Below, piece after piece: positions 11,506-17,962 of a stretch of DNA of 64,000 nucleotides (the stretch's first letter is position 1; each line of letters opens with the position of its first letter). The position numbers and the translations under genes were made by a program. This stretch comes from Vulcanimicrobiota bacterium (lineage in GTDB: Bacteria; Vulcanimicrobiota; Xenobia; Xenobiales; JADMJV01): NCBI GenBank assembly GCA_019637395.1, contig JAHBVR010000003.1, forward strand, positions 1-64,000, in the 5' to 3' direction. The notes under the pieces are model-generated. The model made no database searches. It had not been told where the DNA came from and was given only the letters and a program-made list of their open reading frames with translations.

Positions 11506-12555
11506 CTATTTCCGGAATGCCTGAATCTGCCTCAGGCATAACTCGCGCACCGGAGACCCGGCCAGAAACTCCTTTTGCCAACTCACCGTCGCCGCCAGCG
11601 CCTGCTCCAGACTCCAGCGCGGCTGCCAGTTCAACTCGGCCTGGGCCTTACTGATGTCCAACCGCAGCAAGCCTGCTTCCTTGGGGTGGTTTCCGGAGGG
11701 CGACAATTCGACCCGGGCGCCTTCACCCCAAAGCCGGGCCAGGCTCTGAGCCACCCGCCCCACCTCAGCGTGCCCTTCGTCCCCTTTGGGGCCGAAGTTC
11801 CAGCCGCACTCCAAACCATCCCGGCGGAGCAAAGACTCGGCCAAAAGCAGATAACCGGAAAGCGGCTCGAGCACGTGTTGCCAGGGACGTACTGCCTGAG
11901 GATAGCGCAACTCCACCGCCTGCCCGCGTTCGAAGGCGCGCAAGCAATCCGGAACCAGACGATCAGCCGACCAATCTCCGCCGCCGATCACGTTGCCGGC
12001 CCGAGCGCTGGCCAGGCGCACGCCCTGCTCCTGCAAAAAAGAGGCCCGGTAGCTGGCCGTCACGATCTCGGCGGCCGCTTTGCTGGCGCTATAAGGGTCG
12101 TTCCCACCCAGGCGATCGTGCTCCCGATAAGGATAAGGCCATTCCTCATTGTGGTAGACCTTGTCGGTCGTGATCACCACCACCGCCTTCACCGAGCTCA
12201 CCCCGCGCAGCGCCTCCAGCAGATGGACCGTGCCCAACACGTTGGTGGCGAAAGTGCCTACCGGATCTTTATAAGACTCGCGAACCAGCGGTTGGGCCGC
12301 CAAATGGAAGACGATTTCGGGCTCCGCCTGTTGAACCGCCGCCCGCAATCGGGTCAAATCCCTAAGATCCGCCCGGATGTCCGCTTCCAGCTCCAGACCC
12401 AAAGCCTCCCAAAGCGAAGGCTGGGTGACCGGGTCCAAGGCATATCCAGACAGCTTGACTCCCAGATCGTGCAGCCACAAACTCAACCAGCTTCCCTTGA
12501 AACCCGTATGGCCCGTCAAAAAGACGCGGCGGGCGAGCCAGAAAGTCTCATCCAT
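11506..12555 (-). CDS. rfbG: CDP-glucose 4,6-dehydratase
   Basis: This short-chain dehydratase converts CDP-D-glucose to CDP-4-keto-6-deoxyglucose, the entry point to CDP-3,6-dideoxyhexoses. The Rossmann motif is GHTGFKGSWLSLWL, a form I associate with RfbG/DdhB rather than dTDP-glucose dehydratases. VVITTDKVYHN holds the Thr-Asp pair and YSASK the catalytic Tyr and Lys. ARAGNVIGGGDW is also typical. Length, 349 residues, is normal. Its ATG overlaps the end of the Uma2 gene by 8 bases, so it is likely co-transcribed with it. Its pathway partners rfbF and rfbH lie 15-20 kb away in this window. Confidence 0.92.
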   Translation of the reverse strand: MDETFWLARRVFLTGHTGFKGSWLSLWLHDLGVKLSGYALDPVTQPSLWEALGLELEADIRADLRDLTRLRAAVQQAEPEIVFHLAAQPLVRESYKDPVGTFATNVLGTVHLLEALRGVSSVKAVVVITTDKVYHNEEWPYPYREHDRLGGNDPYSASKAAAEIVTASYRASFLQEQGVRLASARAGNVIGGGDWSADRLVPDCLRAFERGQAVELRYPQAVRPWQHVLEPLSGYLLLAESLLRRDGLECGWNFGPKGDEGHAEVGRVAQSLARLWGEGARVELSPSGNHPKEAGLLRLDISKAQAELNWQPRWSLEQALAATVSWQKEFLAGSPVRELCLRQIQAFRK

Positions 12556-13147
12556 TGCCGCGCAACCTTTCCAACTCGGCCAGCGCTTCCTGTAGCTTGC
12601 GTTCGGCCTCCAGAGCCCGTTGCTCGGCGTCCATGTGGGCGCTTACCGCTAGTTTCTGCCCCTTCTCGTCCACCCAGTGCAGCCAACCACCCTCGCTTTT
12701 CAGGCCCAGCCCCAACCGCTGACTGAACAGCTCGCCGCGCTCATTGAGCAGAATGCTCACATAGTCGTTATCCTGCAGCCGAAAGCCGCTCAAACGCTGA
12801 ATGCCGGGGGCATAGAGAAAATACTCGCTGGTGCGAAAGACGTCCCGGTAGAGAATCAACTTGCGACCCCGATCCTGATGCTCGGTATCGGCCGAAGTGA
12901 GTTCCAGGATGAAATCCGGAAATTGCTTATCTTCTTCCCAGACCACGTAGCACGGCCGAGCTTCCGGCGATCGGCCCAGCACCACGTAAAGATCCGGCAC
13001 TACAAAGCGAGGCGGCTTGGTCTGCTGATAATAGATGGAATTCTGCCCACCCACGTAGGCGTCCGGCAAATAAGCCCGCAACGCTTCCAGGAGCATCCTG
13101 CACTGCAAAGTATGCCGCTCGATCTCGGCCGAAAGACTGCGCTTCAT
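12548..13147 (-). CDS. Uma2 family endonuclease (DUF820)
   Basis: A 199-residue protein with the Uma2 PD-(D/E)XK fold. FVVPDLYVV supplies the Asp, ILELTSADTEHQD the Glu and Asp, RGRKLILYRDVFRTSEYFLY the Lys and Tyr region, and a Lys/Glu/Ala-rich coiled tail ends the chain. Members of this family are common and often multicopy, but their role is poorly known; DNA cleavage is inferred from fold. It starts 20 bases after the remnant of an antitoxin-like gene and overlaps rfbG by 8 bases at its end. Confidence 0.85.
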   Translation of the reverse strand: MKRSLSAEIERHTLQCRMLLEALRAYLPDAYVGGQNSIYYQQTKPPRFVVPDLYVVLGRSPEARPCYVVWEEDKQFPDFILELTSADTEHQDRGRKLILYRDVFRTSEYFLYAPGIQRLSGFRLQDNDYVSILLNERGELFSQRLGLGLKSEGGWLHWVDEKGQKLAVSAHMDAEQRALEAERKLQEALAELERLRGNG

Positions 13148-13167: not shown

Positions 13168-13360
13168 TTAGAAGGTTCCTCGCCGCATGTAGAGTTCGGT
13201 GCGCTCATACTCCAGCAACTCGGCCAGTGTGTAGCGCGGCCGCGGCTTGGCCTACCGAAGCACCAGCCTGAAGACCCAATTGGTCCAGAAAGGCGGGCGG
13301 CACGGCCAACAGAACCGATCCACCAACCTTGCATAAAATAGTGATGTGATAATTATACAT
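13168..13360 (-). pseudogene. Broken MazE/AbrB-type antitoxin gene
   Basis: From an ATG at 13360 the frame reads MYNYHITIL followed by CKVGGSVLLAVPPAFLDQLG and LQAGASVGQ. This is the swapped-hairpin DNA-binding domain of MazE/ChpS/AbrB-like antitoxins. The next frame then continues with KPRPRYTLAELLEYERTELY and MRRGTF before a stop at 13168. In intact relatives the two parts join through a short GRLVVEP-like segment, which is missing here. A small deletion with a frameshift therefore broke the gene. No toxin gene is adjacent; the Uma2 gene follows instead. The domain identification is from recalled family pattern, while the two-frame layout is seen directly. Confidence 0.65.
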
Positions 13361-13459: not shown

Positions 13460-16400
13460 ATGTCCACGATTAACAAAACCAACAACCTGCAAAATCTGAG
13501 CCCACTGCGCCCGCAGACTCAGCCGGCCCAAACGGAAGCCCCCAAAGACCCCGGCGACGGCTGGGTGGGTGGGGTGGGAGCCAGAGACGATAAACCGGCC
13601 ATCCCTCAGAGTCAAACGCAGGCTGCCGAAGGTCACAAAAGCACCAGCCATCACACCGCGCTCAAAATCGCGCTGGGCACCCTGGGTGTAGCCGGAGCGC
13701 TGGTGGGTATGGCGCAAACCGCCCAGGCTCAAGTGCTGGCCACTCCGAGTGGGGCGCCCCGCTCGCTCACCGACCAGGTGCGCGACACCCGCCCCGTCTT
13801 CGCCGGCAGCGTCAACGATGTGGTTAACAAATTCACCGCCGGCCGCCAGATCTACGTGGTCGGCAATCCTCAATACCAGGGCCAGAACCTCGACCTCAAA
13901 CAGTTCCAGGACGTCTTCGCCAAACACCCCAACGCCTACATCGTGCTCATCGGCCAGAGCGACAACGTCAAAGCCGACGACTACGCCCTCTCGCGCGGCA
14001 TCGCCAACAGCGAACAGTTCAAAAGCGTGGGCGACCAGGAAACGGGCCAGCCCAACGGCCAGGTCTACATGGTTTATTTCAAGGTGACCGACCAGAAGTT
14101 CATTCAGCAGACCGGTAAAGACCGCGCCATCTATATGCGCTCTGAGCAACTGCTGGACGATGCCGGCGTGGGCGAAAACAACTTCGTGGATCGCGAAACC
14201 CTCGAACCTCGCACCCTCATGCAGACTTACGTCAGCGCCATCCAGAGCGGCCAGAGCGTGCCCCAGGCCTTTGCCCAGGTGCTCGACAAAGTCGATGCCG
14301 GCCAGGCAGCTTTCGTCAAGTCCACCGTGCGCGGCGCCCAACAAGCCGTCGATCAGGCGGGCAGCCGGCTCAGCGACGTGCAGAAAACCGTGCGCGACTT
14401 CCAGAAGAAGCATGGCGAGAAAGGCAGCCTGGGCAAGCCCGACGTGCAGGCCTGGCAGGCTCGCCTGCAGACCGCCAAAGACCAGCTCAAGGCCCGCGAC
14501 TACGGCGCCGCCGGCGAAACCGCGCGCGCTCTGATCACCAGTCTTTCCAATTACGAAACCCAGCTTTCCCAATTCAACCAGGCTCCCGCCCAGGCCCAGG
14601 AAATCAGCCGCCAGATCTCGGCCCTGGAACTCGAGGTCCAAAAGCTACCCAACAACGGGCAGGCCCAGCAGGCTCGCGAAAACCTGCAGAGCGCCAAAAA
14701 CAGCCTGGCTGCCTACCAGGCCAAGCACGACGCCAACGAACTCGGCTTCCAACCCGAACTCGACGCCGCCCGTAGTGCGGTGGGCGAAGTGCAGCACCAC
14801 ATCGACGCCTCGCGCAGCAGTGAAGCGGCCATCAAGAACCTCAAGCTCTATGGTTCGGCCGCCCTGGGCGTCAGCCTCATCGCCACCGCCCTGATCCTCA
14901 ACTACAAAGCCCGCGGCCGCCGCAAAGAATCGGAAAAGGAACTCGACGAAGCCCTGGCCGCCCTGGCCGACCGTTCCAAAGAACTCATCAAGGTCATGAA
15001 CGAGGCCGACGTGGCCCAAATCGCCGGCTTCACCGGCACCACCCAGAAACTGGCTAAAGAATTGCTGGGCAACACCGCCGAAGCGCTGGCCCTGCTCGGT
15101 GGCGGCGACAAAATTATCGACGAAGCCCGCGACCTGATCAAAGGCAACTCCTTCGGCTCCCGCCTCAAGAACATGTTCCTCAAAGGCAATTTTGACAAAG
15201 CCGTCGAGCTGCTCACCGATAAGGACGCCAAGATGCCCTTCGAGCTGGCCGACTCCAAGAAGATCGAACTGGAGAAAGGCAGCCGCGCCGAAGCCTGGCG
15301 TGAGCACCTGCTCAGCACGGTCGTCTCTAAAGCCGGCGAAGAGTCGTTCGTGCAGATGCTGGACAAGCTGCAAAGCCTGACCACCGGCAACGCAAAGACC
15401 ACCCAGGTGTTGCTCAAGGAGAGCCGCGAAGTGGGCGCCTACCTGGACGGCGTCAAAGACAAGAACCACGCCATGCAGGGCCAATCGGAAGCCCTCCAAA
15501 AAGCTGGCGAGGAAGACAAGTTCTTCACCGCTCCCAGCGTTACCAGCCGCATCACCCCTTTCGTAGACGGCCTCATCGAAAAAGGCCACCAGGTCAAAAC
15601 CACCGACCCCTTCCGGGCCCGCGAGGAGTTCGGCGAAGTCAGCGAGCGCATGATCGCCGACGGCCACAACATCATTGATATCGGAACCTTCGGACGCAAC
15701 CACACCATGCCTCTGCTGGCCAAAGCCGACGAAGCCCTCCACCCCCACGAAATCGTCACCAACTGGGCTCACCTGCGCAAGGAAGAACTTTCGATCGCTC
15801 TCGACCGCGAGGGCGAAAAGACCATCGAGCAGGAAACCGAAAAGACCGTCGCCCAGATCAAGCAAGACCTGCAAGCCCTGGAATCCCGAGTGGAAACAGT
15901 GGTCCAACTCGACGACAAACGTTGGAACCTGGCCAAGCCGCAGATCAATGACGCCGACCAGGCTATTAAAACCGCCCGCGAAGGCTTATGTAGTGCCCTC
16001 AAAGCGGCCGGAGTGTTCAAAGATGGCAAGCCGGAGCAGGTCTTGAGAGAACCCGACCGCGACCCGTCCGCCCCGCTTTATGAAGCTCAGCAAAATTACG
16101 ACGCCATCAAGCCCTTGCTCGACAAAGGCAACGTCGACCAGCCGCCCACCCACCTCAAAGCCGTCGGCACTCTGACCCGCCAGGCCAGCGATCTGGTCAA
16201 GGACTCGCGAGCCGCCTTCGAAGGCTACCCTGGCGATAGCGGCGAACGCCGCAACCGCCACCTCAACATCACCAACAGCATTCCCAACAAATACCAGCCC
16301 TCGCTGAATCGCATTCAAGAAACTTACACCGAAGCCGCCCAGAAATCGGTGGTGCGCGAAGTCAGCTCCAACCTGAGCAGCAAGGTCGGCACCGTCTCGG

Positions 16401-17962
16401 AGTTTCTGGACAGCACTTTCCGGCTGCTCGACAAAGCCGCCGGCATCACCGACCACGCCGCCTACAACTACGACCGCGCCTATCTGCTTACCGCCAAAGA
16501 CGAACTGGCCCAGGTCCACAACATTCTTATCGAGGGCCAGACCAACCTGGATGCGATTACCAGCGGCGAAGCCACCCTCCAGAGGCGCCAGGCCGAAGCC
16601 GAGCAGGGTTTAAAAGACCTGACCAACCGTATCGCCGGCACCGACAAGAATTCCCAGGCCGTCTACGTGCGCGCCAAGGCCAAGAAATTGCTCCAAGAGG
16701 TCCAGGCCGAACTTGAAAAATCCAAACCGGTGGTCTTCCAAAAACCGGCCAGCCCTTACGAAGCGCTGAACTTCCTGGCCTCGGTCGAGTCGCTCAGAAC
16801 CAAGGTGGAAAACACCATCGCCTTCGACCACCAGGCCTACGACGCGGCCAACGCGGCCATCGCCCAGGCCAGGTCGCTCATTCAAACGGCCGACGCCGAA
16901 GTCGACAAAGCCGCCCGCACCAACTGGTCACAATCGATTTCCGGCTACGGCACGGTCTCCAACGCCGTCAACTCCAGCGACCTCAACCCGGCTCGCCGCA
17001 CCGTCGACGAAGCCCGCGGCCAGACGCAAAAAGCCGAAGGCGAACTCGGCCCCCAAAAATATGAAGAAGCCAAATCAGCCGCCGAAACGGCTCAGGCCAG
17101 CGCCCAAAAGGCCCGCCAGCAAGCGGCTCAAGTGGTCAGCGCCGCTCAGGCCGTCTTCAACCAGATGGTGGCCGGTGGCGAAGCCATCGCCGCGGCCGGC
17201 CGCGAAGTCGACCAGGCCCAGCGCCAATTGGACGACTGCGCCCGCCAGAGCTGGAGCCAGTACGTCAACGGCTTCGGCCAGGTCCAGCACAGCGTCAGCT
17301 CGTCTGACCTGTCGCGTGCCCGCAGCATTCTGGATGACGCTCGCAGCAACATCTCCTCGGCTAAATCCCAGATGAATTCCAACCAGTTCGACAGCGCCAA
17401 GTCGACCGCCAGGCGGGCCGAACAACGCGCTGGCGAAGCCGTTTCCGAAGGCCGCCGAGCTGTCGAAGCCGAGCATCAGATCTTCTTGCGCAAGGTTCGC
17501 GAGGCTCAAGAATGCGCCCAGGCCAAGCAACTGATCGAGCGGGCCGAATCGGATATTCGCAGCGCCGAGTCGGCTATATCCAACGCCTCGCGCCAATCCT
17601 GGAGCAAGAGTGTATCAGGCTACGGCACCGTCTCTCACTCGGTTTCATCCAGTGATCTGAGCAGCGCCAACAGCTATCTGTCCAGCGCCCGCAGCGACCT
17701 GTCCCAGGCCCGCAGTTACCTCAGCTCAAGCAGCTACAGTTCCTCGCAGAGCGAAGCCCGCGACGCCTCGAGCAATGCCGACCGGGCCGAAAGCGAAGCG
17801 CGCCGCGCCGTCGACCGGGCTCACGACGAATTCGAGCGCAAAGTACGCCAGGCGGAAGCCTCCGTGCCCAAACCCCCCAGCGGCGGTGGCGGAGGTGGGG
17901 GCGGCACCGGCGGTGGTGGCATTGGTGGCGGCGGCTCCGGTTCCACCGGCGGCGGTTGGTAG
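13460..17962 (+). CDS. Giant TPM-like coiled-coil membrane protein
   Basis: The chain is 1500 residues from the ATG at 13460, which has AGGAGAG just upstream; an open frame before it lacks such a site. Residues 1-65 are disordered and 66-90 form a hydrophobic segment ending in AQTAQAQ. Residues about 100-235 resemble a TPM domain (IYVVGNPQYQGQNLDLKQFQ, YIVLIGQSDNV). A coiled coil spans 270-450, and LKLYGSAALGVSLIATALIL crosses the membrane near 461-480. Long helical regions then run to 1470. Three repeats with a W-S, G-[YF]-G and SSDL core lie at about 1150-1470. The end is a Gly/Ser-rich tail with a final Trp, as in TPM (YgcG-like) proteins. Function is unknown; an envelope-spanning structural role is a guess. 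Confidence 0.85.
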   Translation: MSTINKTNNLQNLSPLRPQTQPAQTEAPKDPGDGWVGGVGARDDKPAIPQSQTQAAEGHKSTSHHTALKIALGTLGVAGALVGMAQTAQAQVLATPSGAPRSLTDQVRDTRPVFAGSVNDVVNKFTAGRQIYVVGNPQYQGQNLDLKQFQDVFAKHPNAYIVLIGQSDNVKADDYALSRGIANSEQFKSVGDQETGQPNGQVYMVYFKVTDQKFIQQTGKDRAIYMRSEQLLDDAGVGENNFVDRETLEPRTLMQTYVSAIQSGQSVPQAFAQVLDKVDAGQAAFVKSTVRGAQQAVDQAGSRLSDVQKTVRDFQKKHGEKGSLGKPDVQAWQARLQTAKDQLKARDYGAAGETARALITSLSNYETQLSQFNQAPAQAQEISRQISALELEVQKLPNNGQAQQARENLQSAKNSLAAYQAKHDANELGFQPELDAARSAVGEVQHHIDASRSSEAAIKNLKLYGSAALGVSLIATALILNYKARGRRKESEKELDEALAALADRSKELIKVMNEADVAQIAGFTGTTQKLAKELLGNTAEALALLGGGDKIIDEARDLIKGNSFGSRLKNMFLKGNFDKAVELLTDKDAKMPFELADSKKIELEKGSRAEAWREHLLSTVVSKAGEESFVQMLDKLQSLTTGNAKTTQVLLKESREVGAYLDGVKDKNHAMQGQSEALQKAGEEDKFFTAPSVTSRITPFVDGLIEKGHQVKTTDPFRAREEFGEVSERMIADGHNIIDIGTFGRNHTMPLLAKADEALHPHEIVTNWAHLRKEELSIALDREGEKTIEQETEKTVAQIKQDLQALESRVETVVQLDDKRWNLAKPQINDADQAIKTAREGLCSALKAAGVFKDGKPEQVLREPDRDPSAPLYEAQQNYDAIKPLLDKGNVDQPPTHLKAVGTLTRQASDLVKDSRAAFEGYPGDSGERRNRHLNITNSIPNKYQPSLNRIQETYTEAAQKSVVREVSSNLSSKVGTVSEFLDSTFRLLDKAAGITDHAAYNYDRAYLLTAKDELAQVHNILIEGQTNLDAITSGEATLQRRQAEAEQGLKDLTNRIAGTDKNSQAVYVRAKAKKLLQEVQAELEKSKPVVFQKPASPYEALNFLASVESLRTKVENTIAFDHQAYDAANAAIAQARSLIQTADAEVDKAARTNWSQSISGYGTVSNAVNSSDLNPARRTVDEARGQTQKAEGELGPQKYEEAKSAAETAQASAQKARQQAAQVVSAAQAVFNQMVAGGEAIAAAGREVDQAQRQLDDCARQSWSQYVNGFGQVQHSVSSSDLSRARSILDDARSNISSAKSQMNSNQFDSAKSTARRAEQRAGEAVSEGRRAVEAEHQIFLRKVREAQECAQAKQLIERAESDIRSAESAISNASRQSWSKSVSGYGTVSHSVSSSDLSSANSYLSSARSDLSQARSYLSSSSYSSSQSEARDASSNADRAESEARRAVDRAHDEFERKVRQAEASVPKPPSGGGGGGGGTGGGGIGGGGSGSTGGGW
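16911..17850 (+). repeat. Three coding repeats of about 110 residues
   Basis: Within the giant protein, units begin near 16,914, 17,240 and 17,588. Each has an A/S-R-x-x-W-S core, then G-[YF]-G-x-V, a Ser-rich SSDL and an AR-containing helix. Units two and three are most alike (QSWSQYVNGFGQVQHSVSSS versus QSWSKSVSGYGTVSHSVSSS). The spacing is roughly 325 to 350 bases. Confidence 0.8.

Follow-up and report, generated by a model that had tools for sequence, protein, structure and literature searches.

The window analysed here, a 64,000-nucleotide stretch of DNA with which contig C23 of a 7.66 Mb genome begins, holds a gene for a protein of 1500 residues that on balance would seem to be a bitopic inner-membrane scaffold, with a TPM-fold head outside the membrane and a rod inside. 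We calculated the open frame, its conservation, two hydrophobic helices, a set of repeats and the predicted folds. The parts of the gene are as follows.

13460..17962, + strand: gene for family copy A; a 1500-aa open frame, kept in four other genomes of the same genus
13460..13651, + strand: hydrophilic N-terminal extension before the signal or anchor, residues 1–64; among the least conserved parts
13652..13732, + strand: predicted signal peptide or anchor, hydrophobic, residues 65–91, ending AQTAQAQ; hydropathy maximum 1.73 at 67–85
13805..14332, + strand: alpha/beta domain with a predicted TPM fold (the head), residues 116–291; AlphaFold2 pLDDT mostly >90; aligned by VIA-align to 2kw7, 2lt2 and 4oa3
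14258..14881, + strand: long-short-long-short-long helices in the AlphaFold2 model, residues 267–474, predicted to be extracytoplasmic up to the membrane helix
14840..14908, + strand: second membrane helix, residues 461–483, followed by KARGRRK; hydropathy 1.66, and a test of its flanking K+R
15347..17863, + strand: predicted rod (AlphaFold2 model), residues 630–1468; nine long (43–68 aa) and eight short (19–27 aa) helices, mean step 99.5 residues
16811..17149, + strand: repeat 1 (W1156), predicted beta-hairpin at 1155–1169; repeat scoring and AlphaFold2 model
17138..17476, + strand: repeat 2 (W1265), predicted beta-hairpin at 1264–1278; repeat scoring and AlphaFold2 model
17486..17824, + strand: repeat 3 (W1381), predicted beta-hairpin at 1380–1394; repeat scoring and AlphaFold2 model
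17873..17959, + strand: disordered Gly-rich tail, residues 1472–1500, ending GSGSTGGGW; pLDDT <50, last residue W or F in 16 of 16 rows

The gene and its relatives

The frame is open from position 13346, with an ATG at 13460 and the stop at 17960–17962 in our reading of the ORFs. The protein is 69–88% identical over its whole length in the four other genomes of the genus, and dN/dS for the window gene against its four clade A relatives is 0.12–0.24. It is therefore a real gene, and these comparisons indicate that the family is under purifying selection. The single 1500-residue chain described in the initial annotation is thus upheld, as one open frame conserved in four other genomes. Constraint on the TPM-fold head is among the strongest along the chain (dN/dS 0.05–0.11); the values for the 28-residue signal and the tail are 0–0.19 and 0.06–0.20, respectively.

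A second copy, copy B, is encoded 73 kb away in the same genome (L012 6168–10076; C23:90667–94575). It has 1302 residues, is 46–47% identical to copy A, contains one hairpin repeat and has the same GSGSTGGGW end. The N-terminal motif search of seven loci found copy B proteins only. Across 149 genomes of the phylum the N-terminal domain is present in nine, all among the 18 genomes of the class; an earlier draw of the phylum gave the family in 9 of 98. Eight of the nine class genomes that lack it belong to one family of 1.9–4.7 Mb genomes, and the ninth is 61% complete. No relative of the protein was found in the viral collection. In a tree of 16 rows, the window protein lies in a fully supported clade of five, clade A.

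No conserved operon partner was found and the gene stands alone, and its neighbours offer no clue to its function; scans for promoters and terminators gave no site on the + strand. A divergent gene for a 199-aa protein, which we take to be Uma2-like, is located at 12548–13147 (- strand) and adjoins copy A in three of the four same-genus loci (L063, L064 and L065; not L066). Copy B is adjoined by a gene for a 385-aa protein (L012 1952–3106, - strand), an arrangement kept in four other loci (L067, L068, L069 and L074). Between 20000 and 45000 of the window many ORFs appear to encode sugar-nucleotide epimerases, dehydratases and glycosyltransferases, and this region is probably a polysaccharide locus.

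The head domain

Is the head a TPM domain? Probably it has a divergent TPM fold, because the AlphaFold2 model of residues 116–291, approximately, aligns with TPM structures. The model of residues 88–475, made from a 16-row alignment, has a mean pLDDT of 88. When the 1000 best Foldseek chains were realigned with VIA-align, residues 29–207 of the model matched 2kw7 at Z 9.6 (rmsd 3.5, 135 aligned), along with 2lt2 (Z 8.8), 4oa3 (Z 8.0) and 8ovc_V (Z 7.3), and among the 50 rows listed the alpha/beta part was covered by these four only. One protein, BA42, underlies both 2lt2 and 4oa3. A profile made from nine Pfam-positive TPM domains of the same class recovers 2kw7 (4e-21), 2lt2 and 4oa3 (2.2e-06) as TPM sequences, and has 9wcx_k, a DUF5130 chain, as a sub-threshold match.

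The initial annotation had called for an HMM search against TPM. Run on the whole protein and its pieces, this gave no match to the Pfam family, PF04536, at E<=10. Likewise, the NCBIfam scan of the protein gave no TPM match, TPM is absent among the 25 Pfam families listed for the 16 family members, and the seven Pfam TPM places in the genome do not include the window gene. In the PDB, hmmsearch with the N-terminal alignment returned no TPM chain; its top match was 2jua, a designed helical protein (5.8e-05), on the helices. Foldseek alone gave nothing for the head model at E<=0.001. The best profile-profile comparisons with TPM had P of 0.034–0.11, the reversed controls 0.08–0.72, so that no significant similarity was seen. 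The TPM-like domain reported near the start of the protein is therefore supported by its predicted fold and not by these sequence searches. Its placement at residues 95–240 has to be revised to about 116–291, 20–50 residues further on.

Could the head instead belong to an unrelated fold family that resembles TPM through a common beta-alpha arrangement? This lack of sequence support would fit, as would the Asp of the V-x-D-x-A motif, which is invariant in the nine class TPM domains and has no counterpart in a low-confidence forced profile alignment of the head. However, that same low-confidence alignment runs from end to end in order, three TPM structures (representing two proteins) align at Z 8–9.6, and no other alpha/beta family covers the head among the VIA-align rows listed. 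We consider an unrelated fold quite unlikely.

Membrane topology, rod and tail

The helices after the head (267–318, 329–344, 348–394, 400–424 and 431–474) have the same long-short alternation as the rod in the AlphaFold2 model, and the last of them runs into the second membrane helix. Within 15 residues of that membrane helix there are 3–6 K+R after it versus 0–3 before, with more after in 15 of 15 rows; this test leaves out L040, whose frame lies at a contig end and begins only with the membrane helix, and disregards an isolated regex match at residue 794 of L028. The excess of K+R after the helix predicts that the N-terminus is in, the head out and the rod in, and we infer this topology from the sequence. 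The earlier suggestion that the protein may span the envelope is better worded as spanning the inner membrane. Some 1200 residues of helices had been proposed; about 1000 mostly helical residues were found, and the membrane helix, at about 461–483, divides the chain into portions of about 370 and about 1000 residues.

Helical repeats of great length, and ends rich in Gly, occur in surface fibres. The window protein has such features, and several weak structural matches of the head model are surface proteins, so that the whole chain might be exported to serve as a surface fibre or adhesin; the hydrophobic stretch at 461–483 would then belong to the helical stalk. Against this, the hydropathy of 461–483 is near that of the signal, the basic cluster follows it in all 15 rows, and no cell-wall or outer-membrane anchor family was matched in Pfam or NCBIfam. 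Export of the whole chain is highly improbable in our estimation.

The AlphaFold2 model of residues 500–1500 (17 rows) has a mean pLDDT of 88.3 and a pTM of 0.42. The helices of the rod, counted with the omission of one 11-residue helix (model 459–469), are predicted to form triple-helix units, with one continuous helix ending each unit and starting the one after it. Structurally, the rod matches EzrA best (4uy3: Z 13.8, 187/194 residues, rmsd 5.4; 4uxv: Z 11.6, 471/522 residues, rmsd 15.5, Foldseek probability 0.92). This is a resemblance only, since according to the alignment tool's own note a Z of up to about 13–14 may be chance for helical rods. Plain Foldseek of the rod model gave nothing at E<=0.001, and Pfam EzrA or spectrin was matched in the rod in 0 of 17 rows at E<=0.01. 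Within the N-terminal stretch A3, 2 of 16 rows match EzrA (PF06160), at best with 3.8e-06, which is taken as generic helix similarity. Other identities from Pfam and NCBIfam for the protein, its pieces and the family rows were rejected, being weak matches only and mostly to generic helical families. Elsewhere in the genome, a 253-aa frame has a sub-threshold EzrA-like match (L107; C7:234108–234677).

Clear mutual sequence match among the rod units is confined to the three hairpin units. The three W-S/G-Y-G/SSDL repeats of the initial annotation are confirmed as repeats of about 113 aa, with the pattern W-S...G-Y/F-G...SSDL, that score 20–25 standard deviations above shuffled units. A structure prediction of the repeat unit had been proposed, together with a search for the repeat elsewhere; in the AlphaFold2 model of the rod, W-S...G-Y-G is a two-stranded beta-hairpin in the loop of each of the last three rod units and S-S-D-L opens the next helix. 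We know of no counterpart of these hairpins in EzrA. Rod units 1–5 have no sequence match to each other in the pairwise unit comparison. The high scores of adjacent unit pairs, up to 5/6, are artefactual and come from an overlap of 35 residues built into the units; unit 3 against hairpin unit 1, one of 21 non-adjacent pairs compared, has a P of 0.00044.

The search with the repeat profile found 29 places in 9 of the 18 class genomes, and all assignable ones are within this TPM-headed rod family; a match in a 307-aa frame (G047:C560) was left out of the assignment. Three hairpin units are present in 5 of 5 members of clade A, and one is present in clade B (4/4), in clade C (3/3) and in three more distant rows. 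G025 has no hairpin unit by motif and a weak repeat-profile match (E 2e-10). As three units occur only in clade A, with one or none elsewhere, the sequences are most simply explained by a single hairpin triplication at the base of clade A.

The Gly-rich tail with a final Trp is also as first described, in that the chain ends GGGW. The last residue is W in 14 and F in 2 of the 16 family rows. Genome-wide, GGGW followed by a stop has 8 matches, two of them in long frames with Gly-rich tails, both of which are family members. Similar ends (GASW, GGDW) are found in some Pfam-positive TPM proteins from the class and not in others. For example, a 555-aa protein (L001; C21:11215–12006) has two TPM domains, and after them Cys-rich pairs and a tail of Ser and Gly that ends GASW. 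The long family may have a short analogue in a 432-aa TPM protein (L006; C36:281465–281746) that ends GGDW and contains a hydrophobic segment and a stretch that looks helical. For the idea of an expanded TPM protein the results are therefore divided: the head has no TPM sequence match but has a predicted TPM fold, and the tail was not found in unrelated proteins of the genome.

Proposed role and known systems

In the scaffold that we propose, the TPM-fold head and the short helical stalk would be outside the membrane and one helix would cross it. The EzrA/spectrin-like rod of about 840 residues would lie in the cytoplasm, followed by the flexible Gly-rich tail with its conserved terminal aromatic residue. 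The head may act as a binding site or sensor for some component of the envelope or for a membrane complex under assembly, and the rod and tail may gather cytoplasmic partners under the membrane. The protein would then work like YdjH, the PspA anchor, joined with EzrA: head outside, tether, rod inside. We infer this scaffold role, a plausible idea already raised in the initial annotation, and likewise the identity of any partner. Tentatively, the protein may be a spectrin-like linker, with about eight triple-helix units inside, two outside and a TPM head, that couples an envelope complex mechanically to a filament in the cytoplasm, in a lineage where no EzrA is recognisable.

Two further roles draw on the known systems more directly. 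A YdjH-type envelope-stress anchor would be a membrane receptor that recruits PspA via the cytoplasmic rod. The TPM-fold head, membrane helix and Gly-rich tail are as in PspA-linked TPM proteins, and the genome has two PspA genes, but these are at C3 and C1 and adjoin neither copy A nor copy B; the window gene, on C23, has no pspA operon, and its rod is far longer than described for YdjH. This role is possible, if rather doubtful. A division or cytoskeletal scaffold like EzrA, with the rod arching over FtsZ or MreB filaments and the head touching cell-wall enzymes outside, would agree with the top structural match of the rod, with the single pass and the triple-helix units of about 100 aa known for EzrA (PMC5354558), and with a genome that has no EzrA above the family cut-off. 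Yet the rod is without sequence kinship to EzrA and the surrounding ORFs look, by reading, like sugar-nucleotide and not division genes. Additionally, the family is missing from 9 of the 18 class genomes, which argues that it is not a core division protein, and we regard this role as unlikely.

The bitopic scaffold has a bearing on TPM proteins in general. According to PMC11237479, these proteins are widespread and their role is disputed, as phosphatase or assembly aid. An ordered rod of great length, joined across the membrane to a TPM head, is in keeping with the assembly or anchor view, which would be testable in a single chain carrying both. Few bacterial proteins resemble spectrin, and this would be a further one. 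TPM with a long coiled coil is already in print (PMC11237479). In the open-access papers searched, no TPM-fold head was found described as sitting on an ordered rod like that of EzrA.

YdjH is described as a TPM domain with a low-complexity stretch or long coiled coil behind it, and TPM with a long coiled coil behind it is also described for PspA partners (PMC11237479). A chaperone-like role in assembling membrane complexes has been proposed there (PMC11237479; repeated in PMC12419801). In B. subtilis, PspA and YdjI are bound by YdjH, a membrane protein, and depend on it to be recruited to the membrane (PMC8581546). The window protein is like YdjH and the long-coiled-coil TPM proteins in having a predicted TPM-fold head, a membrane helix and a helical or low-complexity stretch. 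It differs from YdjH in the absence of a Pfam-level match and of a pspA operon, and in its additional extracytoplasmic helical stalk and its ordered rod.

With EzrA, a membrane-tethered rod able to act as a scaffold (PMC5354558), it would have in common one membrane helix and, attached to it in the cytoplasm, a predicted rod of triple-helix units of about 100 residues. EzrA has five units, a four-helix bundle and an N-terminal membrane helix (PMC5354558), whereas the window protein would have about eight units inside and a folded head outside, with no sequence kinship to EzrA in the rod. Finally, the YgcG-type TPM proteins, as represented by examples from its own class, have in common with it the head, a membrane segment, a Gly/Ser-rich end and a final aromatic residue. 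They are 200–300 aa long, in contrast to the 1300–1500 aa of this family with its divergent head.
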